From the NCBI GenBank assembly GCA_022494885.1, contig JAGVSM010001332.1:124001-188000 (forward strand): a stretch of 64,000 nt of DNA. The letters are read 5' to 3'. Positions 9,386-55,686 of the stretch are shown piece by piece. This stretch comes from Micrasema longulum. Taxonomy: Eukaryota; Arthropoda; Insecta; Trichoptera; Brachycentridae. Every line of letters begins with the position of its first letter. Position 1 is the first letter of the stretch. The position numbers were made by a program, and so were the translations under genes. Below the pieces are notes generated by a model that saw nothing but the letters and a program-made list of their open reading frames with translations, ran no database searches and had not been told where the DNA came from.

Positions 9386-9555
9386 TTACATGCCAAGCTT
9401 TTTTCTCTTATAAATAATTGTAGTTCTAGGAATATTATACTTCCTAGCTACTTGAGATACTGATATGATCCCGGCAGATACTTCTTGAAGAGCCCTCATC
9501 ATATCATCAGCGGAATAGTAACAATTTCTCTTCCGAGGAACCAAGTCGTAGTAGC
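9386..9555 (-). CDS. Alternative terminal exon, pipsqueak-type HTH only
   Basis: A 55-residue exon with no in-frame ATG near its start, hence easy to miss. The minus strand shows GTATTTTTCAACAG, then GC completing a split codon in the array's phase. It reads YYDLVPRKRN, then a psq helix-turn-helix: YSADDMMRALQEV (13-25), a turn, SQVARKYNIPRTTI (33-46), ending YKRKKLGM and TAA. The order 'Y-S-x..L..al..v.....s...vA+kY.iP+.Ti' is the HTH_psq DNA-binding signature of Pipsqueak and pogo-type transposases. Unlike the exons at 49202 and 55235 it stops right after the HTH. A short linker plus a single HTH would give a BTB-psq protein. Strand, phase and position between FLYWCH exons tie it to the same transcription unit; I have not seen the upstream exon. 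Confidence 0.8.
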
Positions 9556-9864
9556 CTGTTGAAAAATACGTATTTATGGGCTGTTTTTACATTTCCATCA
9601 ATATAAATTAAGCATAAAATAATTTAGAGGAATCATAACAATTGGTATAATTTATGCGACGGTATTTTTACTTAAACTGAAAACGGTCCACAAATAAAAA
9701 AATCACATACCTTTATTTCACATACACTATAATTATTGTATCGCCTGGATTTGTGTATGAATAGTATGTTTGCATTCGAAATTATTCGCAAATAAAAACA
9801 ACTGTTTGTATTAAATCCTTTTTATTTATTTAATCAAAACTAATAAGAACATTGAAATGAATTT

Positions 9865-10290
9865 CAACAGAGGGGAAAAACGTTTTTGAGAGAATCTATA
9901 GAAGTCAAGGCATTTGCAGGATTTATGACATGTAATTGGCCGGTTTAAGTGGGCATTTTACACATGTGTAACTTTCACCATTACACCAGTGTTTAAAATC
10001 CACATTTCTTCAACTCTTCCATCAGTTGACTTTTGATGATTGCACGCTCTTTCTGCATTAGTTTTTTTTTTATTTAAATCTATCACCAAAAAAAGTTTAC
10101 GTAGATAATAAATTCGTTAAAATAGCTTGAAAGAAAGAGACTTCCAGGACTTCAAAACAGCTGCGGGTGGAGGTGGGTTCCCCCTCAAGTAAATCAATCC
10201 TTTTTACTTCTTATGGAGTGAAATTCAACATTTTTACCAACATTTGGATATACATACTAAAAATTTGGGCAACCATCGTTTTTCCGGGTG
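9865..10290 (-). repeat. Interspersed repeat RD copy
   Basis: Begins 'cagaggggaaaaacgttttt', carries the ggtttaagtgg core and ends with 'tggagtgaaattcaaca ... acatttggatatac'. Related to the copies at 15822, 51475 and 61352. Confidence 0.65.
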
Positions 10291-10312
10291 GAAAATTCGA
10301 CCTTACCATACT

Positions 10313-10498
10313 TACTATATTTTTCGGACCATAAAACGCACTTTTTTACTCTGAAAGTTCAACCAAAAATTAGGGTTTGTCTTATGGTCCTATACGTCTT
10401 ATCGTCCAAAACATTTTTTTTTCTTCTAAAAATGATAATTAAATTTTGAGGTGCATCTAATGGTGCGATGCGTCTTATCGTTCGTAAAATACGGTACT
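10313..10498. mobile_element. MITE with 'cggaccataa.acgca' ends
   Basis: The left end tatatttttcggaccataaa and the right end (read backwards accgtattttacgaacgata) form imperfect inverted repeats around about 130 bp of AT-rich filler, with 'aagacgca/tgcgtctt' words repeated inside. Widespread MITEs with this kind of terminus are known in animals; the superfamily is not assigned. Confidence 0.6.
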
Positions 10499-10499
10499 T

Positions 10500-11448
10500 A
10501 CAATTGATAAATCTTTTACATTCCCGTATTAGTATAATAAAATATCTTGAGACATATTGTAGTATAGTCTATTTTTGATAATATTTTTTGTCAAACATTT
10601 AAACATTGCAAAATTATATACCTACCTTAAAACTGGTTGTAAATGTTGATAAATAATATATATTCGTAACACTCATTGTGAATACAAATAAAATTATAAA
10701 AATTAATAAGTCTCGACTTTTAAACGATGCAATTACCTGCTGCAAAAACCAAAAAAACGATGTTTTGTTGTGTAAAATTATACTTACAAACTAAATAAAT
10801 ATCGGCACAGCGACAGAAATATAATATTTTTCTTTTGGTCAACATTAAAGTCAGTTTTCTTAAACTATGATAGAAAGAATGGATTTTATGTACGAATGCG
10901 CCATCTAACACATAAACAATTTGTGTAATATGCAGGTATGTTAATGTGTTGATTAAAATTGCAACGTTGATTGGTTGACTTCATTTGATGACCACAGCAA
11001 CGTGTGTTTGCTTACAGAAAAATACGGTTACCGTGTCTGAAGTTAATGTTCCTTTGCCCTGAATCAAAATTTATGAACAACATATAAAAGGGTTTTAAAA
11101 ATACGGGGAAGTGCAAACTATTAATTAAAAATACAGATGTGCTTTTCACAGTAAAAAAATAAAACAGCATTAAATTCATAAATTTCTACGTGTAATGAAT
11201 ACAAAAAAAATTGCATCTTGTCTCTAGAATTATTCATCTATTCGTTTCTAGTACGAATGATCGGTTTAATTTAGACATGTTTACACTAAATTCGCCTACG
11301 TTTTTATATGAAAAACATTTCGAAAACTTTAAATCTGTTCAAATATTTTTCTGTTGCTTTACTATCCTGGAACGAGCAAATTACAATTTCAACTAAAGTA
11401 ATGTTTTGAGTTTTTCTACTGACATTTCTTGGTGGAACTACAGTTTAA
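10500..11448. other. AT-rich spacer, no gene seen
   Basis: Holds a 63-codon minus-strand frame (10720-10911) that starts in the array's phase after a TTAG, but the peptide has no recognisable domain, so I leave it uncalled. Confidence 0.35.
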
Positions 11449-11646
11449 TTATAATAATAAAAATACTTTATATTCCACTTTTATTTATGATTATTTTATA
11501 ATTTTTTTACCAGTGACCGGGTTTCGTCGTGACCGTCATCGTCAGACTGATGTCGGTCACGACGAAACCCGGTCACTGGTACAAAATTTATAAAATAATT
11601 ATAAATAAAAGTGAAATAAAACTATAGAGTATTTTTATTATTATAA
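11449..11646. mobile_element. Foldback element with 27-bp perfect core palindrome
   Basis: The arms are nearly perfect inverted repeats along the full length. The inner part, 11509-11535 (accagtgaccgggtttcgtc...), is exactly complementary to 11554-11580, leaving an 18-bp loop; the outer arms are AT-rich with a few mismatches. The arm similarity suggests recent insertion or gene conversion. Confidence 0.8.
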
Positions 11647-11844
11647 TAAAAAGTAATGTTTTTTTTTTCAATTTTACACCATGGATACCCTATGAGCGTC
11701 CACATTCTTCCAGTATACTATGACTCAGTTTTTTAATACAAAATATAAAAAAAATACAAACGTTATAAAGAGAAAAAAACATAGTTTAGTTCCTTATGAG
11801 TCCACGTTTCTCGGAGGAATGAATATTTTTTTGTAGAGAAAAAT

Positions 11845-11990
11845 AAATATTTGCGTTCTTATGATTAATATGTTATAGCCATTTTCTTTCAGTCGCAAAT
11901 AAACGTGATGGCAAATGGGAAACAAGCAGTGGTAGAGTAGGATTCCAACCTCGGATCTCCGGATTTCGAGTTCACAACACTATTCAAAGG
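11845..11990 (-). mobile_element. SINE family C, decayed
   Basis: Body 'atatttgcgttcttatgatt' and a damaged tRNA head (tggtagagtaggattccaac) in minus orientation. Confidence 0.55.
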
Positions 11991-11999
11991 ATTACAACA

Positions 12000-12600
12000 C
12001 ATCTAGTGCATAATAAACAAAATCAAAATGTTGGAGAATTTACGACTCGAGTGGAATCTGCCTGTATACCAGGAGCGTTCCGTCCATATATACTGTGGAT
12101 GCGCCGAATCCCTTGAAAATTTGAAAATAATGTGTATTTTACTAAAATAACATTATAAATACGAAATAACATCTCCAAATATGTATTCCTAAAATTCTCA
12201 CCGAAAACGTTCGGGTCCACGCGATTCAACGAATATTTTCACTATACATACCGAGCTACTAGCTTCGTATGCGTATTTCATATATTAACGAATGTTTTGA
12301 ATACTAGGTATCTTGTCCTTGATAGTATTCCTTGTATGCGCGGGATTTTGCTTGTTGAAATGCGTCTAATCGCCATAGCAATCGTCCGAATTTTCACGAA
12401 CGCGCTTTCGGTTCATTACGTTTTAGATTTCTCCTACGAGACTCGGAGAGATAAGAACATCCAATTTGTATAATGCGAAGAAAAAACGACTTTATTACCT
12501 TGTAGCATAAAATTTAAAGTAGCGTATTATTGATATTTGATTCAAATTTTAGAACGACTATCTCGGGTCTTGTTTTAGGTGTTTTAATATTTATCTCCTT
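12000..12600. other. Unclassified sequence
   Basis: Moderate GC. A 29-codon minus-strand frame (12023-12112) follows TTTTCAAG in the array phase but shows no domain. No gene is supported. Confidence 0.3.
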
Positions 12601-12770
12601 TTCTCACCTACGGGGACCGTCCTGGAAGACCGTCGATGGCGATCTTTCAGCTTTATTCGGCGGAACTAAGGGACGCGGAATTGACGTTGGAGGAGGCGAA
12701 AGTGCTGGCTAACGATAGGGCTTCCTGGAGGCGTCTGGTCATGTCCACATACTCCACATAGTAGTGAAAA
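12600..12770 (+). mobile_element. LINE C-terminal fragment (RTE-like)
   Basis: With one frame shift it reads GRPSMAIFQLYSAELRD, LTLEEAKVLANDRASWRRLV and a stop, the 'GRP..W.D.L..dL....TLEEA..LA.DR..WR.LV' tail of arthropod LINE ORF2. Confidence 0.65.
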
Positions 12771-12779
12771 AAGAAGAAA

Positions 12780-13560
12780 ATAAGACAGTTTAGAGCTTTA
12801 GCTCTCGACGCGCCTATGCTCAGTCAATTTATTGATCGTCAACTATTAATTTTCATTGTTTTAATGGATAACTTATGCAACGTATTATATAATTCCTCGA
12901 GTGCACTTTACGAAAGTGAAAATATGCAAAACTGAATTTCATTCAACTTAAAATTTAAGTAAAACTTTAAAGAAAAACAAATTATATTGTCATCAAAGTA
13001 TAAACTCATATTTCTTACTATAATATTGAGTGAGTTTCTAGAAAACATATCTCAATTATTATTTCAATTATGTTTTTTATACATACATTCTTTTTCTGTT
13101 GATTTCAATGATACTCTTATTTTGTTTTTTTTTAATTCTTCTATATTTTACTATTATTTTTTTGATTTTAATGATACCATTATTTTGTATATTTGAATAT
13201 AGGTAAATCTTAATTTGTATAATTTATATTTTAAAAATTATTTCTGATTACCTTTTTTGCATTGTATTCTTTGGAATTTTATTATTAATTACTTATACCT
13301 TTTTTTCTAGATTATTATTCTATTGCATCACACATGTCATCATAATTTAATCTAATTAATTTTACTACGTATTTTTATTGTTAAATTGGCATAGCCTAAA
13401 AACGGGACACGGGCATAGCTTAAAAAGCCTTAATAAGTTCATTAATATTTAAACTAGTGTAATTTTGAATGAATAAATAAACAAATACACCATAGCAGTT
13501 GATGTATGATATAAATACGCATATCTACGATAATATCTAATAAAAAAAGAACATGATTAT
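12780..13560. other. AT-rich, probable LINE 3' ends
   Basis: The 13390-13480 part ('ggcatagcctaaaaa', 'aatgaataaataaac') looks like the 3' end of a LINE inserted in plus orientation. No gene seen. Confidence 0.35.
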
Positions 13561-13564
13561 TTTT

Positions 13565-13838
13565 TGTCAGCATCCCTACTGATAAAAGTCACCGCACGCG
13601 CCTGCTGTACACATATTGTACGATAGTGGTTGGAGTGTTCGCTTATCATGATTGAGACGCCGCGCCGAGATGGATACCTAGAAAAATTGACTTATAATAT
13701 ATATTTATTAGGTGGTTTTACACTGCAGTATTTCGCTGCCCGTGGACTGGTCCCTGAAACGTAAGACTGATCACTGATCGAGACACGCTGCATCGGAGTA
13801 GCAGCGTTAGGCGTGGATAGAGAAGTACCGACGACGCT
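13565..13838 (+). mobile_element. SINE family B, decayed
   Basis: A degraded tRNA head (gatagtggttggagtgttcg) is followed by the family body (cactgcagtatttcgctg, gactggtccctgaaacgtaa, gagacacgctgcatc). It abuts the stop of the FLYWCH exon at 13839 and would lie in its 3' UTR. Confidence 0.6.
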
Positions 13839-14026
13839 TTAATGATTATGATTATTCGATATTCGAACAATGTTTTGTTCTACAGCAAAAAGAACAGCTT
13901 TGCAGGCGTGGTTTTGCCTCACGCACCTGTACCGCGAAACACCACTTTTGGTTGTAATATGCTCTTTGAATGTGTAAAAACCTAGACGTAATCCTTTTTT
14001 TCCTCTCGATGTGGTGAAAAACAAAC
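13839..14026 (-). CDS. mod(mdg4): Alternative terminal exon, FLYWCH with W-to-Y change
   Basis: A 61-residue tail ending directly at HNH. The acceptor is GTTTATTCCAG, then GT in the shared phase. It reads LFFTTSRGKKG (1-11), GFYTF (15-19), R31-Y-R-C34, C41, then NNHNH (57-61). The tryptophan that gives the family its 'W' is replaced by Tyr, while both Cys and both His ligands remain. It may still fold, but this is the only array member with this change. The stretch KEHITTKSG lies in the variable loop. The nearest same-strand exon downstream is the psq exon at 9386. Confidence 0.84.
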
Positions 14027-14089
14027 CTGGAATAAACAACGTATTTAGAAACGAACAAAAAATAATAACGAAATAAAAACATAAATATT

Positions 14090-14425
14090 ATCAACAATGC
14101 TTCGAGTTTGTCCGAATGGTTGTAGACAAAGACTGGATTTAACCTTTCAGGGGAAGTATTCCAAACGCTCTCGCGGCCGTAGAAATCAATTTTATTTCTC
14201 GTATTTTGTAGGTAAAAAATTAGGGCTGACACCTTTATCTTTTATCATGATGAATCTCACCCACATGATAAAAGTTTCAGCTCTTTTACTTCACAAAAGT
14301 CAACAGACTGAAGAGTTGAGGAAATGCGGATGTTTAAACATAGGCAGAATGGTGAATGTTACACAGTGTGTAAAGTGGCCACTTAAACATGACAGGGCAT
14401 GTGCCCTGTGAATGCCTAGACTTCT
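14090..14425 (+). repeat. Interspersed repeat RD copy
   Basis: Plus orientation, including 'gaatctcacccacatgataa', 'cacaaaagtcaacagactga' and 'acttaaacatgacagggca'. It produces a spurious 104-codon frame. It starts about 65 bp upstream of the FLYWCH acceptor at 14026. Confidence 0.65.
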
Positions 14426-14855
14426 ATTTTCCTTTCTAAAAAAAAATTTGCAACAAATTAAAAACCAAAAAACATCATAAGTGTATACTTTTATAGATCA
14501 AATTTTTAGTGTATATTTTAAATAATATATTTAAACATCACCTGTATATTGGTAATTGATATAATTTGAATTCATTTTATTTATTTATACATCTTAAGAA
14601 CGAATACAAACTCTTAATAACATTACATTTGATATTGAAATTTATCAAGAACATTTTTCTTTCAAATTGATTTGAAATATTTCGAGGCTTCCCATTATGA
14701 AAATAGTCACCACACCACACTCCAAACTCACAAAATAACAAGAATAACAAAACTATCACAATTAATATCATCTGTATTTATTCTCATTACATCATGATGT
14801 CCTGTTCATATATTTACATGACATATTTTGTAATGTACACAATCGTTGCTGCATG

Positions 14856-15140
14856 TTTTTTTTTGCACTACAACAGACCAGAGGGCCTAATTACAGTGAT
14901 GAGTACAGCACTAAAGACCCAGGCTTGAGAACAATCACATTGAAGGCGGATCCGTAAGCCCACCATCCACCCGCAGCTGTTAAAGAGTCCTGGGAGACGC
15001 TCTGTCAGCTGTGCATAGAGGAAAGTTATTATAAATATTTCTAAGAAATACAAACTCTATGCAGATTAAGGAGGGGGGAGGAGGATGCATGGACAGAGGC
15101 CAATACGCCGTCCCCGCCCCTCAGGATCCCCTCAATGCCT
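14856..15140 (-). mobile_element. SINE family A-related, decayed
   Basis: Starts with a T-run and 'gcactacaacagaccagagg' like the other A copies, then diverges into a GC-richer block ('cctgggagacgctctgtcag', 'tcaggatcccctcaatgcct') that recurs at 24030-24190. Confidence 0.5.
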
Positions 15141-15289
15141 CTTTTATTTTATTTTATTAAAAAATATCTATTTCTACAACTTACACAAATAAACGTAGAC
15201 AAACATACAAAAATAGTAACTGAAAAAAAAGTAACGCAGCAAACATAACTAACACAACAAACATAATTGAAAACACGGATTTTTATATA

Positions 15290-15592
15290 TACAATGAAAG
15301 GGCGGCCTTGAGTAAAGAAGGACTCCCTGGGTGGTCAGAGGCAGAGGACCCGAATAGCAACCCCGTAAGGGGAAGACAAAACAAGAGAACGTGTGCGTTC
15401 TGCTCAGAAGGAAGCACAGTCCCAACTGTATCAGCATCCCACGGGAAAGTCCACACCATATTTAACCACATAGGCATCCGCGCATCTCCAAGAACAATCA
15501 AATTCAATGCTTGTGTTCTCGCCGGAAATCGAACCCAGAACTTTCCGTGCATGAGTCAAGCGTCTTTACCACTTCACCACGGAGGCCGTCGT
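15290..15592 (-). mobile_element. SINE family A with longer body
   Basis: The minus-strand tRNA head at about 15510-15592 includes a mutated B box. The body of about 200 bp is GC-richer than its flanks and open in two frames, which yields spurious ORFs on both strands. Confidence 0.7.
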
Positions 15593-15821
15593 ATTTGTTT
15601 TTTTTAAATAATTTATTTGTATTATACCAATATTAGTACTATGTGCACAACATTAAATGTGCTAACATGTTGCAACAGAGATAGAAAATTTTTCAAATAA
15701 GGAAGATTTTTAAATACAAAAAGTTTAAAAAACAAAAGTTGACAACGGCATAATGAACTGAAAAATGTTTTCAGAGGAAGTTGAATAAATCAGCTAATGT
15801 GCTTACTTTATTTATGCTGCA

Positions 15822-16165
15822 ACAGAGAGGAAAAACATTTTTGAGAAGGGAATATGGAAGTCTGAGCATTTACAGGGGATAGGACCTGTCATTGGCTAGT
15901 TTAAGTGGTCACTCCGCACACTGTAACATTTACCATTCTGCCTACATTCATACATTTACATTTCCTCATTTCATCCATCCGTTGATCCCTCGGAAGTAAA
16001 AAAGTGGGCACTTAAACCAGCCAACGACAGGCCCTGGAAACGCCTAGACTTCGATATTCTATTCTAAAAAAGGTTACAGATCTTTATAACTCTCTAGGAA
16101 GGAAATCCAGCCTGTCTACAAACATTTGGACATACTCGAAACATTGTTGATTAAGCTGGTATAAG
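15822..16165. repeat. Repeat RD, two inverted half copies
   Basis: The first half runs in one orientation (cagagaggaaaaacattttt ... ggctagtttaagtggtcac) and from about 16000 the second half runs in the other (acttaaaccagccaacgaca ... tacaaacatttggacatact). This head-to-head arrangement suggests recombination or nested insertion. Confidence 0.6.
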
Positions 16166-21167: not shown

Positions 21168-21376
21168 CTAAGCATATTTAGGCAAATATTTGGACGCGTG
21201 TTCGTGCACATCGAAGCTGTACAATTTTATGGTTCCATTGGGAGTTGTATGCAATTTCGCTTTACAGTATCTCGAGGAGCATCTCCATCTTACTTTCAAA
21301 TCTGTTCTTCCACTTTCGTAATAGGAATATCCACGATAAAACAGCGTCGTTCCGCGTATAACAATCTCATCGAAAC
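21168..21376 (-). CDS. mod(mdg4): Alternative terminal exon, FLYWCH zinc finger (paralogue of 24994-25205)
   Basis: A 68-residue tail. The acceptor is TGTATAGTTTCAG, then GT in the shared phase. It reads FDEIVIRGTTL, the GYSYYESGRTD core (16-26), R29-W30-R-C32, C37 and then H57-E-H59, ending SKYLPKYA and TAG. The Cys-Cys gap is only four residues (CSSRYC), shorter than the six seen in most array members, and the same short gap occurs in the exon at 24994. The two match at 48 of 68 positions without a gap, so they arose by duplication of one exon about 3.8 kb apart. The upstream open frame (about 40 codons) is intron. Confidence 0.88.
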
Positions 21377-24993: not shown

Positions 24994-25205
24994 TTACGAA
25001 TATTTAAGCACAAGCTTAGGAGTATGGTTGTGCACATCATAGCTGTACAATTTTATTGTTCCGTCGAGAGTTGTATGTAACTTCGCTTTACAGCATCTCG
25101 ACGAACATCTCCACCTTAATTTCATATCTGTTCTTCCGTTTTCGCGAAAAGAATATCCACGATAAAGCAAAGATGTTCCGCGTATTATAATCTCATCTTC
25201 AGAAT
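24994..25205 (-). CDS. mod(mdg4): Alternative terminal exon, FLYWCH zinc finger (no useful ATG)
   Basis: A 69-residue tail missed by ATG-based ORF calling because its only Met lies mid-domain. The minus strand has ATATATTTTCAG, then AT in the shared phase. It reads SEDEIIIRGTSLL (1-13), YRGYSFRENG (14-23), R30-W31-R-C33, C38, then H58-N-H60 and the tail TPKLVLKYS before TAA. It is the close paralogue of the exon at 21168-21376 (48 of 68 residues identical, same CX4C spacing), which is strong evidence that both are coding: differences fall mostly at conservative sites (I/V, L/M, D/N, F/Y). An AATAAA lies about 130 bp past the stop on this strand. A repeat RD fragment (24785-24860) sits just downstream. 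Confidence 0.87.
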
Positions 25206-29058: not shown

Positions 29059-29327
29059 TCGGCCTCGTGGTAGAGTGGTCAGCGCATTTGCCTACCATGC
29101 AAGAGGTCTCGGGTTCGATTCCCGACATGGTTAATATGAAAAATTTATTTAAAAGATGTTTTTTTTTACACCAGAATATTTCATAGTCCCAGGACTGATA
29201 CCTGAGGCGTAAGACTGATAATCTTTACCTTCATGTAATAAAAAAATATATGGATAAACTGCGATTTGTGTACCAATGCAGTGCCCTATGCACCATTAGG
29301 TGCGGAAAGGTAATGATGATGATGATA
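29059..29327 (+). mobile_element. SINE family B, full-length
   Basis: Best copy: tRNA head tcggcctcgtggtagagtgg with B box GGTTCGATTCC, body 'cccaggactgatacctgagg', 'ccaatgcagtgccctatgca' and an (atg)n tail. Confidence 0.88.
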
Positions 29328-29417: not shown

Positions 29418-29608
29418 TTAATGGTTATGTTTATTTCTAAATGCGCAAATACAATTTTCATACATGTAAGCTACCGCAGTACATTTTGTATTATGACGTG
29501 ATGAGCAGAACCACCTCGATTTTCCAGATTTATCGATTCTTTGTCGGTAAAAGGTAAATCCACCGATTTCTAGCATAACGGCGCCTCTCTGAGTTTTAAC
29601 GAACCTTC
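29418..29608 (-). CDS. mod(mdg4): Alternative terminal exon, FLYWCH zinc finger
   Basis: A 62-residue tail ending at HNH. The acceptor is TTTTATTTTTCAG, then GA in the shared phase. It reads RFVKTQRGAVML (1-12), GGFTFYRQR (15-23), R31-W32-F-C34, C42, then NKHNH (58-62) and TAA. An AATAAA overlaps the stop codon, so the poly(A) signal begins at once. An extra Cys pair (C52, C54) lies in the last strand. Because this exon starts with GA, a T as the last base of the shared upstream exon would make TGA, so the common donor cannot end in T. Confidence 0.88.
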
Positions 29609-31150: not shown

Positions 31151-31353
31151 TTAATTTAAAACATGTGGCAGTGAATGGTTTTTGACTCCGACGATTTCAC
31201 CTTCGATTATATTAACCACACCCGAACATCCTTTGTTATGTCCTGAAGTGCATATCCATCTTTTCTTTCCGAAAGTACTTTCAGAGTGAAAAGTAAAATA
31301 CGCACCCTTGTACAGAAGACGCGTGTGACCCTTACTGGTGACCACATATTCAA
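31151..31353 (-). CDS. mod(mdg4): Alternative terminal exon, FLYWCH with altered His pair
   Basis: A 66-residue tail. The acceptor is ACTTATGTTTCTAG, then TT in the shared phase. It reads EYVVTSKGHTRLL (1-13), GAYFTF (16-21), R31-W32-I-C34, C42, then VKNHSLPHVLN and TAA. The usual H-x-H end is replaced by H59-SLP-H63, giving an HX3H spacing. That spacing occurs in classical C2H2 fingers, so zinc binding is not excluded, but it is unique in this array. The exon lies less than 2 kb from its upstream-numbered neighbour at 29418. Confidence 0.83.
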
Positions 31354-32389: not shown

Positions 32390-33225
32390 TGATCCGCGGG
32401 GTCCCCAATATTCGCACGTGGCCACAAACCTTAATCATTTGGTTACATGAAGCAACTTGCTGCTTTAATTTCTACAAAGAACATAAGTGACTTAAATACT
32501 TATAATATAATTGTGAGATTTTTTAAGTAAGCACAGATAAGTATATATTTTTAAAAAATGAAAAAGAACACAAATATATAAAGCATAATAAAAAACAATA
32601 AAACACATTAATTATCTTAGTTTTATAGGATTTATTTTAATGCAACAACGATTTATAATTTAAAGTGTTTATAATTAATTTTAAAGTCATAATATTGTTC
32701 ACAATTAAAGTTCAGGATTTGATGCTCGGCTACTAAACATGTTTAGAGTTAATATTATAAATGATTCATAAGAAATAAACATTTATTATAATTATTAACT
32801 CACTTAGCTAGGATAAGGTAGCTATTCAAATTATATAACAACGGATTGAAGAGATAATAAGTTAAAATACAAAAAAAAAATCCGCTGTAATAATTAAATA
32901 GTGAAAAGAGGTCGACTGGCGACATACAATAAAGAAAATCAAATTAGTGCCAAATCTCTTCAGATGTTTCGTAAGTTTGTTCCCACACAACTATAACTCT
33001 TCTGCTGACTACTCAGAATACCATCAACTATATACAAGAACTAGAAAATTGATATAGCGCATCGGACGTGTATGGAATTCCGGTTCCGATTTTCGACAAT
33101 ACCAAAAATTTTATAGCTGCATTTTAAAAATAACAAGTAAAATACTTGTACGTTTTACTGTTTTGATCCAAAGTGGTCAGTTAGTGTGTTCTTTTAGTTT
33201 CGATCTATTTTGAAAATAACAAATA
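32390..33225. other. AT-rich spacer, no gene seen
   Basis: No splice-site-plus-domain combination was found on either strand. Confidence 0.4.
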
Positions 33226-33227
33226 AA

Positions 33228-33560
33228 GAAGAAGGAGAATTCAGAGCAATTTTGGGAATTTCCTGGAGAGATCGCGTCATGAACGACGAGGTTCTTAGCG
33301 TAATCGAATGAGGAAGGCACCTGTTTAAGACCATCTCCGAAAGATGTGCTAGATGGACTGGACTCATAGTCTTCACAGTCGTCTCCTACATACAGGAATA
33401 GAGAGGATGTCTGAGGGCCCTCACCGAGAATACCTCGATAATTTATGTAAAGATATGAGCTGCAGGTCATATAAAGATTTAAAGAGGACTTCACAGGATA
33501 GAAAGAGTGGCAGAGGAGATGCAAAGCTTTGCCGCTAACCAACCCATCTTGAATGATTGA
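33228..33560 (+). mobile_element. LINE ORF2 C-terminal fragment
   Basis: Over three frames the plus strand gives ILGISWRDRVMNDEVL, ERCARWTGLIV, HSRLLHTGIERMSEG and REYLDNLCKDMSCRSYKDLK with a stop after PANQP-like sequence. This is the 'sWrdrvrNeeVL ... R..RWiGHilR' tail of RTE-like LINEs. The long minus-strand frame here is a shadow. Confidence 0.72.
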
Positions 33561-34554: not shown

Positions 34555-34685
34555 GTTAGCACAATGGTTTGAGTATGTCCAAATATTAGCAGACAGGCTA
34601 GATTTCCACCCTAGGGAGTTATTATTATCTAAATTTGTTGAAACAGAGAGGGTAATAGAAGTCCCGGCACATGGCTGATTAAGAT
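34555..34685 (+). repeat. Repeat RD, partial
   Basis: Holds the end block 'gtatgtccaaatattagcag ... ccctagggagttattattat' of the family. Confidence 0.5.
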
Positions 34686-35280
34686 AACGTTAAGATACAT
34701 ATATACCTCGCTCATTGAATCCATTATATCTTACGGAGTGCGTGTCTGGGGTCTCACCTTCCGGTCTCATCTGGGTAAAATTTATGATATTCAGGTGAGA
34801 CTGTTGAAGGGGATTGTACCGAATAGCATAATCCGTGAGGCGAAACATATGGGCGAAGGTGTATATTTTAAATTCTGTAATGTCCTGCCGGTAAAACAAC
34901 TTTGTGACTACAAATTGATTGTAGATCACTTTGTTGATCCGGAATATAAAAAAAGAGTTTCCCACACTCACAACACTAGATTAAAAACTAAGGGCTCCCT
35001 GTCTGTTCCCCGAATTACAAATTACTTCGGAGAGCGAACATTAAATTGCGTTGTTCCAAGATTGTTTAATGATCTCCCACAAACCATCATCAACATGAAA
35101 AATCTTGAAATGAAAAAAAAAGAACTGAAGAAATATCTTCTAGATACTTTATAGAGCCTGTTTATAAATAAATCTGTAAAATATAAATAAAATAAATGTA
35201 ATATAAACCTGTCATAAAAAAAAAATGTGTCCCACCGAAAAGTCTTTAGACTTAGTGGGTAACAAATTATAATATGTATT
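34686..35280 (+). mobile_element. LINE ORF2 3' end (CR1/jockey-like)
   Basis: An open stretch to 35154 reads IESIISYGVRVWGLTF, GIVPNSIIREAKHMGEG, LPVKQLCDYKLIVDHF, SLSVPRITNYFGERTLN, VPRLFNDLPQ and a stop. These are the C-terminal landmarks of a non-LTR retroposon, followed by a 3' UTR ('ctttagacttagtgggtaac'). The coding part is better kept than in other LINE pieces, but it is 5'-truncated and dead. Confidence 0.75.
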
Positions 35281-38383: not shown

Positions 38384-38580
38384 TTAATAATGGTTGTGGA
38401 CGCCGACGTGTTTGACAAATTTTTCGTCGAGAGTGTAGATCTTGGCTCGACAGGACGTTATCTTCTGCTTGATACAACGCCATGCTGTGATTCCTGAGGT
38501 AAGCACGTGGTATTTGGCATAGCGAAACCCGTGAAAGTCCAGAACGGGATTCCCCTGGCGAGATTTAACGAACAGTGGCC
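38384..38580 (-). CDS. mod(mdg4): Alternative terminal exon, FLYWCH zinc finger (no ATG)
   Basis: A 64-residue tail with no Met at all, so ATG-based ORF finding misses it. The minus strand has CTACTTTTTTTAG, then GG in the shared phase. It reads PLFVKSRQGNPVL (1-13), FHGFRYAKYH (15-24), A32-W33-R-C35, C43, then GVHNHY and TAA. It has the standard CX7C-type loop and an intact HNH. Its codon use is GC-richer than the surrounding DNA, which supports selection on the coding sequence. It lies in the largest gap between called exons on the array's left-centre (31.4 to 43.1 kb). Confidence 0.88.
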
Positions 38581-40404: not shown

Positions 40405-41749
40405 TGATCTAAGGTGGAGTGTGGGAATTACAGAGCTATCAGTCTTCTGAGCGCTGTCGGCAAAATGTATGGAAGAATACTGATAGAAAGAGTAAGAAAC
40501 GTGACCAAGGAGAGAGTATGGGATGTACAGAGTGGATTTATGAATGGTAGAGGATGTATGGATCAAATATTTGCATTACGCAATATGACAGAAAAGTTTT
40601 TGGCAAAAACCAGAAGCTTTTTTGCGCTTTTGTTGATTTGCAAAAAGCATTTGATCGAGTTGATAGGAAAAAAATTATGGATGGTTCTATCGGAGTATGG
40701 AGTGAGTGACAACCTTGTCCGCGCTATTGCTTCTTTGTACAAAGATAGTGTAGCGTGTGTAAGGGTAAATGGGTCACTAACTTCCTGGTTTGACATCCCT
40801 AAAGGAGTCAAACAGGGATGTGTAATGTCACCGTGGTTATTCAACATATACATGGATAAATGTATGAAAGAATTGAAAAGTATGGATGTGGGAGCGAAAA
40901 TGAGTAATCTAATTGTCAGTTGCCTTCTGAAGAGGAACTGCAATCTTCGGTTACAAAGGTTTACGAAGTGTGCAAGGAGAGTGATTTGCTAATGAATGTG
41001 CAAAAGTCGAACGTCATGGTCTTTGAAAGAAATGTAACTATGACTGAATGTAAGATTATAGTAAATGGAGATAGTTTAAAACAGGTCGAAGAATTTGTAT
41101 ATCTGGGTAGTATGTTTACTAGAGATGGAAATATGGACAAGGATATTGAAAGGAGGGTTAGTGCCGGTAACAGAGTTAATGGTGCCTTAAAGTCTGTCGT
41201 AGCAAATAAGTGTCTATCGCAAGAGGCTAAATTAGCAGTTCATAATGGAGTTCTGGTACCAACCCTAATGTATGGAAGCGAAGCATGGAGTTGGAAAAAA
41301 AAGGGACGAAAGTAGACTGAATGCTGTTGAAATGCGATCCCTCAGGCAAATGTGCGGAAAAAACAATGTATGATAGGTGCCCTAATGTCGAAATTAGAGC
41401 AGAATGCAAGGCTGAGTTAAGCATTATCGACAAAATTAAGAAAGGTCTTTTGCGATGGTTCGGTCATGTGGAGCGAATGAATGATGAAAGAACGGCTAAA
41501 AGATTTATGATGCGAATGTGTCTGGTTGTAGAAGTCGAGGAAGGCCGAGAAAGACATGGCATGATCAAGTACAACAAATTCTTGAAAGTGGTCATGTGAA
41601 AAGTCGGAATAATCGACGTGCGTGCATGAGAAGATGTATGAATGTGAAGGAAGCAAAGGAAGTGTGCCAGGACAGAGTGGTGTAGCGTTCTATCCTCTCT
41701 GCCTACCCCTCTGGGGAAATGGCGTGATGGTTAGTTAGTTAGTTAGTTA
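40405..41749 (+). mobile_element. Non-LTR retrotransposon, RT and C-terminal region, pseudogene
   Basis: The longest retroelement piece here. Across several frameshifts it encodes reverse transcriptase (YRAISLLSAVGKMYGRIL, QSGFMNGRGCMDQIFALRN, PKGVKQGCVMSPWLFNIYMD). The sequence then jumps over the YADD region, which is deleted, to LMNVQKSNVMVF, VEEFVYLGSMFTRDG, VLVPTLMYGSEAW, RSLRQMCG and LLRWFGHVERM. It ends with a (ttag)n run at 41730-41749, the kind of simple-repeat tail typical of RTE-type elements. Missing catalytic Asp residues and frameshifts show that it is inactive. Confidence 0.85.
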
Positions 41750-44550: not shown

Positions 44551-44925
44551 GTTGTGGTCCCGTGGTAGTATAGTGGACTAACAGAAAAATTGTCCGAGGT
44601 TCAAACCCCACTCCTACCACAACTTGATACACGCTTTTTTTTTTTTTTTTTTACATTTTTTTTGCACCACAACAGGCCAGGAGGCCTAATTACAGTGGTG
44701 AATTACATCACAGAGCACCCAGGCTTGAGAAAAATCACATTTTAATTTTGTGTTCTCACCGGGAATCGAACCCGGAACCTCCCGTGCGTGAGTCAAGCGT
44801 CTTGACCACTACACTACGGAGGCCGCCGATTGATTCCCATTTATCCAGCACTAGTTGTTTACGACTTGTAGGAAATGCTCTGAAAGTTGAAATATTTAGG
44901 TAAATAATAACTCAAATATTAATAA
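44551..44925 (+). mobile_element. SINE family C interrupted by SINE A
   Basis: Head 44551-44630 (ggttgtggtcccgtggtagt type, B box aggttcaaacccc) and body 44828-44925 (ttgattcccatttatccagc, gtttacgacttgtaggaaat) are the two halves of one family-C element; the SINE A at 44633-44827 sits between them. Confidence 0.78.
44633..44827 (-). mobile_element. SINE family A, inserted in SINE C
   Basis: Nearly identical to 220-392, with intact A and B boxes on the minus strand and a long T-run (A tail) on its plus-strand left side. 'ttgat' words on both sides may be the target duplication. Confidence 0.85.
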
Positions 44926-46950: not shown

Positions 46951-47252
46951 CTATTGTTGACCGGAATATTGACCTTGGCGTTGTTGACCTGGACGTTGGT
47001 AGCCTTGGTGTTGTTCTGGGTGTTGTTGACCCGGGTAATAACGTAGGTTTATTTGACCAGGGTGTTCGTGATGACCTTTCTTATAGATAATCTTATTATC
47101 AAATGTTCTTACTCTACAATAACTATTTGATTTACTCCTCAGAGAACACGACCACCTAGTGATCCCTTTTTTGGCCTCGCCATTCATATTATAAGTGTAG
47201 TTGTTATACACAAGCAATATTTTTCCCTTCGAGGATTGTATGAACCGTAAAT
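46951..47252 (-). CDS. mod(mdg4): Alternative terminal exon, FLYWCH plus Q/P/G-rich tail
   Basis: A 99-residue tail, the longest FLYWCH exon here. The acceptor is GATATGTGTTTTAG, then AT in the shared phase. It reads LRFIQSSKGKILLVY (1-15), NNYTYNMNG (16-24), R32-W33-S-C35, C45 (a long CX9C loop), then H61-E-H63. After the finger comes a low-complexity tail of about 36 residues rich in Gln, Gly and Pro (PGQQ, PEQ, HQGYQ, RPGQQ, GQYSGQQ) before TAG. The tail may mediate protein contacts; it is absent from all other exons. The acceptor lies in the first unit of a 76-bp tandem array (47249-47630), which copies the splice site four more times. Closest relative: the exon at 57842-58089 (shared NYTYNM and GHH-x-HP). 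Confidence 0.87.
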
Positions 47253-47630
47253 CTAAAACACATATCGATGATTAAAACATACATTTATATATTATACGAC
47301 CACTCCATAACTATTGGATCCATCAAATCTAAAACACATATCGATGATTAAAACATACATATATATATTATACGACCACTCCATAACTATTGGATCCATC
47401 AAATCTAAAACACATATCGATGATTACAACATACATATTTATATTATATGACCACTCCATAACTATTGGATCCATCAAATCTAAAACACATATCGATGAT
47501 TAAAACATACATATATATATATTATATGACCACTCCATAACTATTGGATCCATCAAATCTAAAACACATATCGATGATTACGACATACATATATATATTA
47601 TATGACCACTCCATAACTATTGGATCCAAT
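47249..47630. repeat. 76-bp minisatellite, five units, carrying splice acceptors
   Basis: Units start at 47249, 47325, 47401, 47477 and 47555 (spacings 76, 76, 76, 78) and are nearly identical; differences are a few bases and the length of an (at)n run. Each unit contains, on the minus strand, GATATGTGTTTTAG followed by AT, i.e. the same acceptor that begins the 46951-47252 exon. Confidence 0.93.
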
Positions 47631-49195: not shown

Positions 49196-49201
49196 TTTGA
49201 T

Positions 49202-49668
49202 TTAATTACTTTTTTTGGTTTTCTTAATTTGTCGACAACTTTTTGTTAAAAAGTTAGACAGTTCCTGGTTTCTGCTAACGAAATTCTTCACCCATTGCAA
49301 TCCAGGAAGATTGTTTTTGAATTGAGGTACATTCCTGCCACTTTTTTCCAAATAATTTTGAATGACCAAACGCAATGTCAAGGCAAAATCAGAGGGGAGA
49401 ACCCTTGTATTCTCAATGATACAAGAAACGAAAGATCGTTCTTCTTCGACAGAGAATACTGGTTGTTTGCCAGGTTTTTTTGAGTGTTTATTCTTTAGAC
49501 GATTCCTCAACGTGCCTCTGGGTACCTGAAAGAATTTGGCAGCACCTCTCTGGGTCATTTCCTTGCTTCTGATTGCCTCCAAACACCGCTGCAACGCTGT
49601 CTGAGAATACTGGTTATATACCCGCGGACTGCGTAGACGGGGTGAATGCATTGATATCAATGCTTGAA
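49202..49668 (-). CDS. Alternative terminal exon, psq HTH plus CENP-B/Tc5-type domain
   Basis: A 154-residue tail. The acceptor is GGTGTGTTTTTAG, then TT in the shared phase. Residues 1-18 are a linker (QALISMHSPRLRSPR). A pipsqueak HTH follows: YSQTALQRCLEAIRSKEM (20-37), TQRGAAKFFQVPRGTLRNRL (38-57). After a basic linker comes a CENP-B/Tc5-type region: EEERSFVSCIIEN (74-86), LRLVIQNYLE (98-107), VPQFKNNLPGLQWV (113-126), FVSRNQEL (129-136), ending in a basic KKTKKSN. This is the N-terminal DNA-binding half of a pogo/Tigger-type transposase, with no DDE catalytic domain after it. It is 48 % identical, without a gap over residues 20-136, to the exon at 55235. Strand and phase place it in the FLYWCH array; a BTB fusion would make a new DNA-binding isoform. 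A pure transposon remnant is unlikely given the intact frame and splice site. Confidence 0.84.
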
Positions 49669-49689
49669 CTAAAAACACACCACATATTG

Positions 49690-51470
49690 TAAGTAAATAA
49701 ACAAGAATATGGTTAAGATTTTTTACTATGAACTGATTTTATTATCAATATCTGTACCTTAAAGCTGAAAGGCTGGAAGTCACATTTTTTGCAAAATTGA
49801 GTTATGAATGTCATTTTGTTCAAATATTCAGATTCTATTAACGCTAAAAACATTGGAGTCCTCCAGTATACCCTTATTGAAATAGCTTGTTCTAAAACAC
49901 CAGTAGTGCAGTAATAATACTAATGCTTTCAACAAAATTCAACGGTTTGATGGTATTAAAGCAGTGGATACCTAATAAACTCCACAATTTTTATAACAAA
50001 CTACCTCTGACCCAGTGAGCGATTTGCAAATACTTAACCATTATATCATTTTTTTTGCCGTTAATTTCATTATTTTACTTTGCTTTTTTTTCGCATAATG
50101 ATTTCATTCAATAACTGTTTTATTGCTATTAATATGTCATTAAATTTATATTTACCTGTTATTTTCAAAAATAATTAATGTTTTAATTAATGGCACGTAA
50201 TTTAATGTCTTTTCCTAAAGAAAGTTTTATTAATACATTGTTTTTCATTCAATATTCTACATTAGTTTTTAAACTAAAGTCCGAGGAGGAATTAGGCGGC
50301 AGGCCGGGCGGTTGGATCAAAAAACATTGAAGTCCCATAGTTATTTGATAGTCCATACTTGAAAAGTTTTTTCACTTAAATATTCCTTTCAAAAGCCCAT
50401 AAATAAAAATAAAAAACAGCAATAAATTGTGTTTTTACTTCGAGATACATTTGAAACAGTTTTACAACTTCAAACCGCTCTCCTGAACAATTTACGAAAT
50501 GTGTTCCAACATTTCAGCATTAACGTAAAGATATTATTTTTGCGTTGAGCACACTGAATTTGCGTCTATGTTCGGACTGAATCAGCTGTCATTAAACAGG
50601 CTTCCGAGGTGACTTTTCATCTACGTTTTCTCTTTCAGTTTAAAATACCTTGATATTAATCCATTATTGACTCCACGCTAAGTTAACCACCATTTTTATA
50701 TTCTTAATAATTATTCTAGTAAATATCTAAGTAAATGTATTTACAATGTTTTCAATTACCACGTCAATAACGTAAATGAAGAGAGCAAAGGCCTATTTTT
50801 TTACAAGTATACAGTCCACAACGTACCAAATATAATATTTTAATTGTCAATATTTTATTTTTTATATTACGCGATTACGGTCGTAATGTCGAAGAGTCGT
50901 AAGTCAACGACTACCTGTTATCAATTGTAAATAAACCTTTTATGTTTTTTTTACACAACAAACAGAATTACAAAATATTTTTTTAAACAATTAACTCGCC
51001 GTTGAGACCGCCATCAACAGATTCGAGTTTATTTATTTTTTAAACATTGTTTTTCAACAAAAACTATTTAAGGTAGTATTATTGGGTTATTTAGCCATTT
51101 TGTGTTCGATACCCATTATTATTCATTTGGTTTCATGTTTTTTTTTATCGTTTGTATATTGTATTTGTTTATTTTGTATGGTTTATCACATTGCACTTTA
51201 AAAATATAAACATTTTAAAATGTAAAAACCCATTGTGAACGTTAAAAATATACAAAATAAAAATAGAATTTTCGAGTTATTTTTAAATAAATCAATTAAA
51301 TAAATAAAACACGTTAAAAAATATCTAAATAAAATTTATTGGGACTTGTTAAAGGCCAAACCGACATTTAAAAAAATAAAGTTTCAATACAGCTTAAGCT
51401 AACTTAATTAATAGTATAAACATTAAGATTAAAGAGTACTTTTAAAAAAAACTAACATTGTAACTGAAAT
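49690..51470. other. AT-rich spacer, no gene seen
   Basis: A small GC-rich island at 50278-50325 (gaggaggaattaggcggcag) is unexplained; it carries no ORF of note. Confidence 0.4.
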
Positions 51471-51474
51471 ATTT

Positions 51475-51662
51475 TAACAGAGATTGAGAGTATTTTGGGG
51501 AAGGACATATGGAAGTCTCGGCATTTGCTGGGTTTGTGACCTATCATTGGCTATTTTAAATAGACCTTTACGTACTGTGATACATTCACCATTCTGCCTA
51601 TGTTTAAACATCCGTTTTTCTTCAATTCTTCCATCTGTAGATTTTTGTGAAGTAAATGGTTT
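51475..51662 (-). repeat. Repeat RD, partial
   Basis: Contains 'acatatggaagtctcggcat', 'ggctattttaaatagacctt' and 'cttccatctgtagatttttg'. Confidence 0.6.
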
Positions 51663-51805
51663 TCGTAAATGGACCAGCCTATAGCCGATTTCACACCGGT
51701 TGCGGTCGTACAAATCCACACGACATGGTAAAATGAGATTGGATTTATTTTGCTGATGCAATTATTTTTTTACTGGCTTGTTAAAAATCTTGCAAAAGGA
51801 AATCG

Positions 51806-51850
51806 AGTCGGCCTCGTGGTCGACAGGTTAGTACGTTTGCCTTCTATGAA
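51806..51850 (+). mobile_element. SINE family B head
   Basis: Only the tRNA-like start tcggcctcgtggtcgacagg is present. Confidence 0.5.
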
Positions 51851-52025
51851 AAAAATAAATTTAAATTAAAAAAATTGTAATACAATCAAAATCATTCACC
51901 CTATAAAAGTACATATATTGTAAGCAGAGGCGGTTTCTTAGTGTGTGCATACGTGCAGTGCACTGCCACGTAAAACATGTGAACTTAATGTATAAATAAT
52001 TAATGGTAAAATATGTGCTACAATT

Positions 52026-52288
52026 TCGGCCTCGTGGTGTATTGGTCAGTGCGTTTGCCTACCATGCGAGAGGTCTCGGCTTCGATTCCCGACATGGTTG
52101 ATATGAAATATTGATTTAAAAGGGTGTTTTCAAACTGGAATATTTCGTAGTTCCTGGACTGATACCTAAAGCGTAAGACGGATCATAATACCTTCATATA
52201 ACAAAAATGATCAAGATACGCTGCATTTGGTGTACCAATGCAGTTCCCTGTGCACCATTGGGTGCGGAAAGCGAATGATGATAATGAC
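52026..52288 (+). mobile_element. SINE family B, nearly full-length
   Basis: Head tcggcctcgtggtgtattgg, B box GCTTCGATTCC, body 'ttcctggactgatacctaaa', tail 'accattgggtgcggaaag' and (atg)n-like end. Confidence 0.85.
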
Positions 52289-52289
52289 A

Positions 52290-53850
52290 ACGAGACAGGG
52301 ATTTATTGCAACATTATATTAAATCCTAGCGCCGAAAGGTCTAGCGAGATCAACTATAGCGGACAATTTTCTAATTTCGTCATATCACGCATGCGCTTAT
52401 CGTCACAAGCACATTCTGGTTTGCAAGAGCTTTTACCCTGAATTTGTATAAAAAATACCAAGGCCTCGATTATGAACGCTATCTTCATCTGTTTACGTCG
52501 AGACGGTATACTTAACTTCTGTACTATCTATATCTTACCTCGGTATGTTCTACCTACTTGCCATATCGAAATCATATGATCGAAACAAACTAATGAATGA
52601 CTGAAAAACTTAGTCCGCGTTCCTTGCTTCATTAACATTTAAAGTAGTTCTCATTTATATTTTAAATAGGCTTCTGTGATAGAAAGTGCCCACTTCAAAG
52701 CGATTATAAACTTTAAAAAACCCCAATTCAAGCAAAAAAAGCTCGCTTGTATAAGATTTTTATATGACTTTAAACCATTGCCAAAACGATATGCTTAACG
52801 ATCGTCTGCATTTATCTACTGAGAAAGTACTGAGCGATTACAAGGCCGACTCTCGATACGTTCTCTCAGAAAGATAGTCAAACGGATGGAAAAAATTTAA
52901 TAACAAAATTTATTTTTTACAGTGGTAACTTTCTAACGCCTAGATACTCTTATATGTTAATAGAACAGAACCTAGCGTCTTTATTTTTTGCATCAATGCG
53001 TTCGTTTTATTAAACTGACAGTTGTGTCGGAATTAAATTCGACTTCAAGATTTACTTTTTTCTCTCTCATATTTTTAATGGGCTTTTAAGAAAAAAAGTG
53101 CCGTCCCCAAAACGATTAAAAATTTTAATAAATTATAATTAAAGGAAAAATTGCTCGCTGGAACTAAATTTTTAACAATTTTAATGCGTAGATAAACGTA
53201 TCGAGGGATTCTAGACCCGTCGGTATAAACCGATGTACTTACATCAAAACTTGATGGTGGGGGAATCGGTAGTATATCTTTGTAGTCAGTCGGGAGCATT
53301 TTATCTTCAACTATGACGTCATACTGAAGCTATGTCATTTTAGAGCGTAGATATGTGTACCGTGACGTACGTTTCCCCTTGTTTCATATTGTTGTACCTA
53401 CCCAAAACTTGAGGAAGGGGGGTCGGTAGTATATCTTTGTAATCGCTAGAGAGAATTTTTTTCAACTATACCGCCAAGGTGAAGGTATGACGTCTTTATC
53501 TTCTAATCATATTTGAGGCCCAGATATAGTAAAACCGTGGCTTGAGCGAGATAGACTATGCACCATACCGGTGACTTGTACGTCAGAGGAAGAAATGAAT
53601 ACACACACAAGTGCCTGCGCATGCTCAGATTTGGAGTTCATTTGTAACATGACTTTGAACATGCGCACTGACAGAATATTAGTAAGAATTAATGTTAATT
53701 AATGCGTATAAAACATGCAAACAGAAACAAAGGCGAATTTAGCGTTCTGAACTTGTTTCAATGCGCGGGCTGTCATTGCACCTAATTTCGTTTGTTTACC
53801 ACGTCAGACTGATCATATAATATTAATTATCCCTTCCTGGCGATGTGGAG
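52290..53850. other. Unclassified, with a degenerate tandem duplication
   Basis: 53258-53340 and 53415-53500 share 'cggtagtatatctttgta(g/a)tc', 'ttcaactat' and 'tatgacgtc(a/t)t', a decayed duplication with a period of about 155-160 bp. Repeated words such as 'cgtagataaacgtatcga/gcgtagatatgtgtaccg' suggest more decayed units. No coding frame is supported. Confidence 0.35.
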
Positions 53851-53854
53851 CTAG

Positions 53855-53965
53855 TACACATCGCATCTAATAACTCGATTATATCTATAAATATAATAAA
53901 TTCTGGATTATGATTTTCGGTATTCCTCTGTTATACATTTACATATCGGTTAAAGAGCTTTTTTA
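53855..53965. mobile_element. Left part of an element related to 8940-9310
   Basis: Block 'gatgtggagctagtacacatc' and following AT-rich DNA match the right end of the 8940 element in reverse; its other part is at 54870-55110. Confidence 0.5.
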
Positions 53966-54049
53966 AATGAAATAATTAATATTTATTGGGAACAGAAAAA
54001 ACTTTTTATCATAAATTGCAGATAAATCACGAATAGAATAAAAATATTA

Positions 54050-54750
54050 CCCATATTTATTTATTATATTTATACGGCCTAAGCCAATTACAACAGTTAC
54101 ATGAAGAAACATAAATGCAAGAAACTAAACAAAAAGAACATAAAACTATTAAGCAAAGACAAACAAGGGCAAAACAATAATTGTATACAATATATTAAAA
54201 AAACGAAAGACCAAAAACTTTGAGCTAAACCATGCCAATCCAACTTCATCCCACACTGTTTAGTCGCGAAGAGATCTACGAAAAGCCGGAAGATCTATCC
54301 CAAAAAATTCCAAGTCGTGTGATGAATTGACTAATCTACACATTCTGGACATTGGGGCATAAAACCAAAGTTGCTCTTAGAATATTTTATAAATAGCAGA
54401 TTTTGACTTCTGGTGACACGGTTGTGAACATGAAAAGAAATTGATTGCAACAGAGATGGGACATCACTTAAAGAATTAAGTATTTTGAAAATGCATATAA
54501 GGTCCATCTCAGTTCTACGTCTCTCCAATGAAGACAGATTAAGAGATTGCTCTATTTCAAAATAAGAATAATTACCCCTTTGTAATCCGAGCAACCATGC
54601 CACTTTTCTTAAAAAACGGTGTTGGACAGACTCGATATGGTCAATATGAGTCCTGTAAAATGGAGACCAAATAGGAGAAGCGTATTCCATATGTCGCAAG
54701 TCGCGGTGTATGACGTAAAAGAAAACTGAATATACAATTATCTCACACAC
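54050..54750 (-). mobile_element. LINE ORF2 3' end (CR1/jockey-like)
   Basis: The minus strand is open over 54331-54750: EYASPIWSPFYRTHIDHIE, VQHRFLRKVAWLLG, LERRRTEMDLICIFKILNSL, FHVHNRVTRSQNLLFIKY. The motif order (YASPiWsP, iE.vQ.rFlR, L..RR...dl..lyKil+g, f.vp....R) is classic for jockey/CR1 ORF2 C-termini. It ends at about 54050 in a short antisense 3' UTR and splits the element at 53855/54870. Confidence 0.82.
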
Positions 54751-54869
54751 TCTGTACTTTACACTATAGATACTGCAGATATATTCGGGAGCGAGAGACG
54801 CGGACGCGGACGCGTTATACGCGTTAACAGAAAAGTTGCAAGTACTTATGCCAGACGCCGATTAGTAGC

Positions 54870-55110
54870 TCATCGAATTTCGTCAGGGGTAGTTCTTTCG
54901 TTCGAGTTGCGAGCATGAGCTGATGATTTTTTCATGTTTTTAGCAATTAGATGAAAAATATTATTTCTTTTGATTTAAACTGTAAATAATTGAAGCACTT
55001 GCCTATGCATATTCCATTTTTTAGATTTAAAATCTCTCATTTTTGCATGTGTAATGACAACACAACACCGTAACGCGCGGATGTTTTCGGCACAGTAAGG
55101 GAAGGGTTAA
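54870..55110. mobile_element. Right part of the element related to 8940-9310
   Basis: Contains 'caacaccgtaacgcgcggat' and 'gatttttttcatg' blocks seen in reverse at 8940-9150, and ends 'gtaagggaagggttaa'. Confidence 0.5.
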
Positions 55111-55234
55111 TTAACTTGATTTAAACGTTGACAAAATGTAACAAAATGCACTACCAGTGTTTTTAGTCAGGAGCCGCCTGTGATTCATGTGAAAATCAGT
55201 TTAATGTTTTAATCCGTATGGTAAATGCTTAAAT

Positions 55235-55686
55235 CTAGCTAAATTTACAACGCCTAGCATTTTCTAATTTTAATTTTAAATCCGTATTCCTCTTCATAAA
55301 ACCACTAACCCAATCGAGCCCGGGCATATTATCTGTGAATAGGGGAACGGTTCTTTTTTTTCTTTCCAGATATTTTTTAACCATCAATCTAATTTCTAAA
55401 TAAGTCACTTTAGATCCTGAATCGATTATTTTTAATATGCATGATACAAATGACCTCTCTTCGTCTTCTGTAAATATTGTTCTTTTGACGGATTTCTTGG
55501 GGGCAAGGTTAAGTAGTCTTTTTCTAAGCGTTGATCTGGGAATGCGGAAGTATTTGGCTGCTTCGCTTTGGTTCATTTTCTTACTTTTTACAGCTTCAAC
55601 CCCTTGCTGCAGCAGAACTTGTGAATAGTTAGACCGACTCTTACTCGATTTACGCTTTTTGGTTTTCGTAAGAATTCGTTCATCAT
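55235..55686 (-). CDS. Alternative terminal exon, psq HTH plus CENP-B/Tc5-type domain
   Basis: A 149-residue tail. The acceptor is TTTTATTTATAG, then AT in the shared phase. It starts with a basic linker (DERILTKTKKRKSSKSR), then the psq HTH: YSQVLLQQGVEAVKSKKM (20-37), NQSEAAKYFRIPRSTLRKRL (38-57). The second domain has DEERSFVSCIL (74-84), IRLMVKKYLE (98-107), VPLFTDNMPGLDWV (113-126), FMKRNTDL (129-136), and a basic end (ARRCKFS). It is colinear with the exon at 49202 at every landmark (56 of 117 identical), so the two are duplicates that have diverged considerably while keeping the frame, which argues for selection. The DDE catalytic region of pogo-type transposases is absent. Downstream on the same strand comes the paralogue, upstream the FLYWCH exon at 57842. 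Confidence 0.84.

Follow-up and report, generated by a model that had tools for sequence, protein, structure and literature searches.

An array of FLYWCH and Pipsqueak-type exons in Micrasema longulum, probably alternative tails of a mod(mdg4)-type gene

The stretch of DNA analysed here, called the window throughout, comprises 64,000 nucleotides of the trichopteran Micrasema longulum (assembly GCA_022494885.1, contig JAGVSM010001332.1, forward-strand positions 124,001 to 188,000). It is AT-rich (G+C 32%) and carries an array of FLYWCH exons among which exons for a second DNA-binding domain, the Pipsqueak (psq) helix-turn-helix, are interspersed. Local profiles searched against its 1,556 stop-to-stop open reading frames (ORFs) of at least 25 residues from both strands, together with Pfam, give 14 domain-bearing exon candidates, 11 FLYWCH and three HTH_psq, which are interleaved and all lie on the minus strand. 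From 5' to 3' on this strand they follow one another as F57, P55, P49, F46, F38, F31, F29, F24, F21, F13, P9, F5, F3 and F0 (Table 1). Neither the FLYWCH nor the psq profile finds an exon on the plus strand in this ORF set. An earlier note on this DNA had placed the psq exons on the strand of the FLYWCH exons, which is borne out for the entire array; its statement that both kinds share the same spacing is loose, as adjacent exons lie about 0.9 to 8.4 kb apart.

The FLYWCH profile was built from 7 of the 11 exons and recovers all 11, the next-best match having an E value of 0.19. The same seven were run singly through Pfam and each scored above the cut-off, and in F38, F29 and F0 the Pfam domain was located within longer translations, from which the coordinates were converted. 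F31 is assigned by the local profile and perhaps also by a second Pfam stretch whose position was not located.

As the earlier note had proposed, the three remaining exons encode psq domains: all match Pfam HTH_psq (PF05225) above its cut-off of 20.4 bits, and the local psq profile, which contains them by construction, finds nothing else below E 0.52. P9 is short, with its stop directly after the domain, and shows a match to CENP-B_N (E 0.04) that stays below cut-off. The tails of P49 and P55 are 41% identical. When they are read from acceptors at 49668 and 55686, their alignment has no gap up to and including column 146 of 154, and Y20 stays in register. Over 122 aligned codons they differ at 50, 37 and 80 first, second and third positions, respectively, and the rate of synonymous change (dS) is not computable, as if saturated; the excess of third-position change suggests that the protein sequence has been constrained. 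In comparisons of the psq core, P49 and P55 score 120 against one another but only 63 and 66, respectively, against the helix-turn-helix of LCoR, to which a sequence search of the PDB also gave a weak match (E 0.44; E 0.0085). P9 scores 66 against LCoR, 49 against P55 and 40 against P49, and since these values lie below that of the pair, P9 is probably not a recent copy of either long exon. The psq exons are real and form a coherent set, and they are probably functional.

The two kinds of exon also appear to share a splice phase. Each AG that follows the in-frame stop upstream and precedes a domain start set by hand was taken as a candidate acceptor and ranked by hand-made score rules; in 13 of the 14 exons the best candidate leaves two bases ahead of the first full codon (phase 2 in Table 1). 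With a chance of 1/3 for each exon, agreement in at least 13 of 14 would be expected at about 6e-6, a figure to be read with the hand-made score and the non-independence of paralogous exons in mind. When the list of acceptors is allowed to run into the domain, 12 of 14 exons share the phase, with P49 and F0 as exceptions; in F0 a phase-1 site at 812 then outscores the one at 825, yet it would cut into the domain. In F21 the highest score goes to a distant site (21505), and the two sites close to the domain, 21382 and 21376, are in the same phase. The common phase claimed in the earlier note thus stands for 13 exons, while in P49 the site in that phase comes second. Finally, seven of the 14 ORFs (F57, F46, F38, F24, F13, P9 and F0) have no in-frame ATG ahead of the domain and therefore need an upstream coding exon.

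We regard the psq exons as probable members of the array because they share its strand, are interleaved with the FLYWCH exons in a common phase, are not followed by a transposase domain (see below) and include two paralogous tails with an excess of third-position change. The window probably contains the 3' region of a mod(mdg4)-type gene that differs between isoforms, with alternative terminal exons, FLYWCH and psq, that would be joined to one head. FLYWCH is found in 26 of 31 mod(mdg4) isoforms of Drosophila melanogaster and 25 of 34 of Aedes aegypti, the counts for five species being 26/31, 6/9, 25/34, 37/41 and 37/40 (PMC4667647). The locus resembles mod(mdg4) of Diptera and Lepidoptera, with its single BTB head and many alternative, mostly FLYWCH-bearing 3' parts (PMC4667647), in having a FLYWCH array with candidate acceptors in one phase, and differs from it in the three psq tails and in that no head exon was found in the window. 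Moreover, all 14 tails lie on one strand here, whereas some 3' parts of the fly gene are on the strand opposite the head (PMC4667647).

Table 1. Exon candidates of the array and segments within the psq exons, in window coordinates
Feature	Coordinates	Strand	Evidence
FLYWCH tail exon F57, acceptor to stop	57842..58089	-	Pfam FLYWCH 38.7 bits; acceptor phase 2
psq tail exon P55, 149 codons	55235..55686	-	HTH_psq 27.8 bits; best acceptor 55686, phase 2
HTH_psq match in P55	55514..55600	-	ORF residues 43-71
Second conserved segment of P55, predicted helical	55268..55495	-	42% identical to P49 segment; model pLDDT 59
psq tail exon P49, 154 codons	49202..49668	-	HTH_psq 32.2 bits; acceptor 49668, phase 2, second-best score
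HTH_psq match in P49	49475..49600	-	ORF residues 47-88
Second conserved segment of P49	49247..49477	-	Aligned with P55 segment
FLYWCH tail exon F46	46951..47252	-	Pfam 38.7 bits; acceptor phase 2
FLYWCH tail exon F38	38384..38580	-	Local profile E 7e-17; Pfam; phase 2
FLYWCH tail exon F31	31151..31353	-	Local profile E 6e-8; phase 2
FLYWCH tail exon F29	29418..29608	-	Local profile E 3e-14; Pfam; phase 2
FLYWCH tail exon F24	24994..25205	-	Pfam 33.8 bits; phase 2
FLYWCH tail exon F21	21168..21376	-	Pfam 29.9 bits; acceptor 21376 or 21382, both phase 2
FLYWCH tail exon F13	13839..14026	-	Pfam 26.1 bits; phase 2
psq tail exon P9	9386..9555	-	HTH_psq 38.1 bits; best acceptor 9555, phase 2
HTH_psq match in P9	9392..9508	-	Peptide residues 19-57
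FLYWCH tail exon F5	5090..5286	-	Pfam 40.2 bits; phase 2
FLYWCH tail exon F3	3949..4163	-	Pfam 45.1 bits; phase 2
FLYWCH tail exon F0	611..825	-	Local profile E 1.7e-12; Pfam; acceptor 825, phase 2

Three further features of the array are recorded here. F21 and F24 are a young pair of FLYWCH paralogues (48 of 67 residues identical, nonsynonymous rate dN 0.15, dS 0.67), whose divergence could possibly serve as a clock for growth of the array. A 76-bp tandem repeat in five copies with 96% matches (47249-47628) reaches the acceptor of F46 at 47252. At 33177-33385 on the minus strand, a strong phase-2 acceptor is followed by an open frame of 68 codons that opens with an acidic, serine-rich stretch and may be a tail exon with neither FLYWCH nor psq.

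But would a mod(mdg4) head carry a DNA reader other than FLYWCH at all? The earlier note held that mod(mdg4) tails are either FLYWCH or lack it, which is incomplete: a BEN-domain isoform of Mod(mdg4), called predicted, is in print (PMC5094011, PMC3510454), and the protein is named among BEN proteins (PMC5043383), so that DNA readers other than FLYWCH have a precedent on this head. The likeness lies in the non-FLYWCH DNA-binding domain, the difference in that one isoform is named in Drosophila as against three psq exons here. BEN and psq are, moreover, different domains. A psq reader on a BTB head is likewise familiar, in that Pipsqueak and Bric-a-brac combine the two; Pipsqueak and Bric-a-brac are fixed genes and not swappable tails in a FLYWCH array. 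With these BTB-psq proteins the exons described here have the psq reader in common, the BTB head being presumed in our case. BTB-psq proteins are documented in insects, as is FLYWCH in most mod(mdg4) isoforms (PMC11426971). A psq tail of mod(mdg4) itself was not found in the accessible text of the open-access literature, as distinct from subscription papers and insect sequence databases; gene models of the same architecture may well exist.

A different origin of the psq exons would be decay of pogo/Tigger-type transposons, remnants of which could lie here outside any gene. Pogo-like transposases have in their N-terminal half an HTH_psq domain and, after it, another helical segment, an arrangement that P49 and P55 resemble: like pogo/Tigger-type transposases and CENP-B they combine a psq-type helix-turn-helix with a second segment, in which a W...F..R motif can be seen by eye. 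HTH-psq is pogo-derived, as FLYWCH is derived from Mutator (PMC10027918). In addition, the window contains other remnants of mobile elements, recognised by eye, by an RVT_1 match and as dispersed repeats, and short imperfect inverted arms frame the psq exons. These arms, which are not decisive, measure 14-24 nt, are 74-88% complementary and mostly AT-rich, and come without a shuffle control. The psq exons differ from pogo/Tigger-type transposases in what follows them: nine translations, three frames for each of the 1.9, 3.5 and 2.5 kb stretches beyond the psq exons on their downstream side, contain no match to a transposase domain, the sole Pfam match being to DUF6536 (E 0.043). Furthermore, the long exons are open over their whole 149 and 154 codons, and at the DNA level nothing else in the window matches P55, while P49 gives a single match, 43 bp long and located at its 3' end. 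All three psq exons, finally, lie on the strand of the array with an acceptor in its phase. Ordinary pogo transposons with a DDE domain, which the earlier note had set against its own proposal, seem unlikely, as no transposase domain follows any psq exon in these downstream translations, and decaying remnants outside a gene we judge decidedly unlikely.

The second segment of the long tails had been taken in the earlier note for a CENP-B/Tc5-type domain, and for this we obtained no support from profiles or folds. Neither PF03221 nor PF04218 is among the matches listed for either long tail at E <=10, and hhalign aligned to CENP-B the first helix-turn-helix and not the second segment. The score of the second segment against CENP-B is matched by 552 and 385 of 1000 shuffles. 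Fold searches with models of the whole tail (predicted local distance difference test, pLDDT, 63) and of the second segment (pLDDT 59) returned nothing decisive, and CENP-B (1hlv) is not among the 11 matches listed for the latter. A CENP-B/Tc5 label may thus be attached to this segment by its motif only.

Several repeats and mobile-element fragments lie between the exons. Upstream of the P55 acceptor, 33-nt inverted arms, 88% complementary and 200 bp apart, enclose what is possibly a small non-autonomous element (55899-56164). A repeat flanks both P9 (8940-9128) and P55 (54923-55111) with 76% identity, and because the two copies are in opposite orientation we take it to be a dispersed repeat. 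Another dispersed repeat, of about 175 bp at 9862-10036, has at least eight further copies in the window, some of them partial and in both orientations. ORFs resembling reverse-transcriptase fragments of long interspersed nuclear elements were noted by eye at 40408-41599 (+), 34642-35154 (+) and 54331-54861 (-), as was one resembling a mariner transposase fragment at 58945-59196 (+); at 6043-6246 (-) RVT_1 matches weakly and short of its cut-off (E 0.0005). Of three tRNA-like genes, at 29061-29133 (+), 316-388 (-) and 44751-44823 (-), one is a tRNA-Gly by ARAGORN and Rfam, and the other two, just above the Rfam cut-off only, may be tRNA-derived repeats.

A number of observations weigh against assigning the window to a mod(mdg4)-type gene with psq tails, one being that its head was not found. 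A BTB profile made from two sequences gave a best E value of 0.11 on either strand of the window, and Pfam, run on most of the minus strand (all but one frame of 55740-57841), detected no BTB exon there. A BTB domain, with its roughly 110 residues, would be expected to outscore the FLYWCH exons found by the same scans, but long chunks in which stops are read as X lose sensitivity, and F13, which reaches 26.1 bits alone, was missed in them. The head is probably located upstream of base 64000 or elsewhere. This lack of a head, together with the presence of psq in other insect BTB proteins (PMC11426971), would also suit a mixed FLYWCH/psq tail array whose head is that of a different BTB-TTK gene, or of a gene without BTB, rather than that of the mod(mdg4) orthologue. 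As a FLYWCH array this large is known from mod(mdg4) (PMC4667647), we think this quite unlikely. Of the mixed BTB-headed locus proposed in the earlier note, the membership of the psq exons in the array is favoured, and no BTB head was seen in the window; the BTB fusion, and with it the name mod(mdg4), is what we infer.

Further such points concern the psq exons themselves. P49 and P55 have in-frame ATGs upstream of the psq domain and could be separate small genes, and for this reason they may be independent single-exon genes, domesticated N-terminal halves of a pogo-like element that came to lie in introns of the FLYWCH gene and have a promoter and a start codon of their own, with P9 as a separate case. 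That both possess the second conserved segment and are paralogues of one another would fit this equally. Then again, both lie on the strand of the array with an array-phase acceptor at the matching place, and P9 lacks an ATG upstream of the psq domain, so that we consider independent genes unlikely. Contrary to the refutation set out in the earlier note, a promoter of its own would not by itself separate a psq exon from the locus, since alternative 3' exons of Drosophila mod(mdg4) have independent promoters and are trans-spliced (PMC12692577). The excess of third-position change between P49 and P55 fits selection in the host and selection on a once-active transposase alike. In P49, the phase-1 site at 49628 outscores that at 49668 (1.01 versus 0.92); we prefer 49668 because the alignment with P55 from 55686 is ungapped from there, with Y20 in register. 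Poly(A) motifs occur near exon stops, with none within 600 bases of F31, and as about two per 600 bases are expected from the AT-rich composition they were not used as evidence. Finally, in collections that are probably poor in insects, protein searches found no relative of the P55 tail at E <=10, of the P49/P55 alignment at E <=1 or, outside the window, of the P9 peptide, and viral and genome contigs gave pattern matches and no relative of the psq tails.

Returning to the favoured reading of a mod(mdg4)-type gene, we propose the following scheme, which presumes a BTB head, its splicing to the tails, their DNA targets and a pogo-like origin of the long tails. A single upstream set of head exons, presumably BTB and situated either past base 64000 or in another transcript, would end one base into a codon. 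Cis- or trans-splicing would connect it to any one of 14 or more terminal exons, each supplying the two bases that complete this codon. A FLYWCH finger would be added by 11 of the tails and a Pipsqueak helix-turn-helix by three, and two unrelated kinds of reader would thereby direct the same oligomerising head to different sites in the DNA. The long psq tails may represent the N-terminal part of a pogo-like element that was captured and later duplicated within the array. That a BTB-headed insulator-type gene has built its tails from two transposon-derived readers in this manner, psq being a captured pogo-like N-terminal half, is a tentative proposal.

Mod(mdg4)-like genes have been sought in further species by a BTB domain upstream of FLYWCH (PMC4667647), and a survey of this design would miss psq tails. 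If the psq tails are real, the locus would constitute an acceptor site into which DNA-binding modules plug by matching one splice phase, and the entry of new reader domains into an insulator protein would become testable by comparing the arrays between insect orders.

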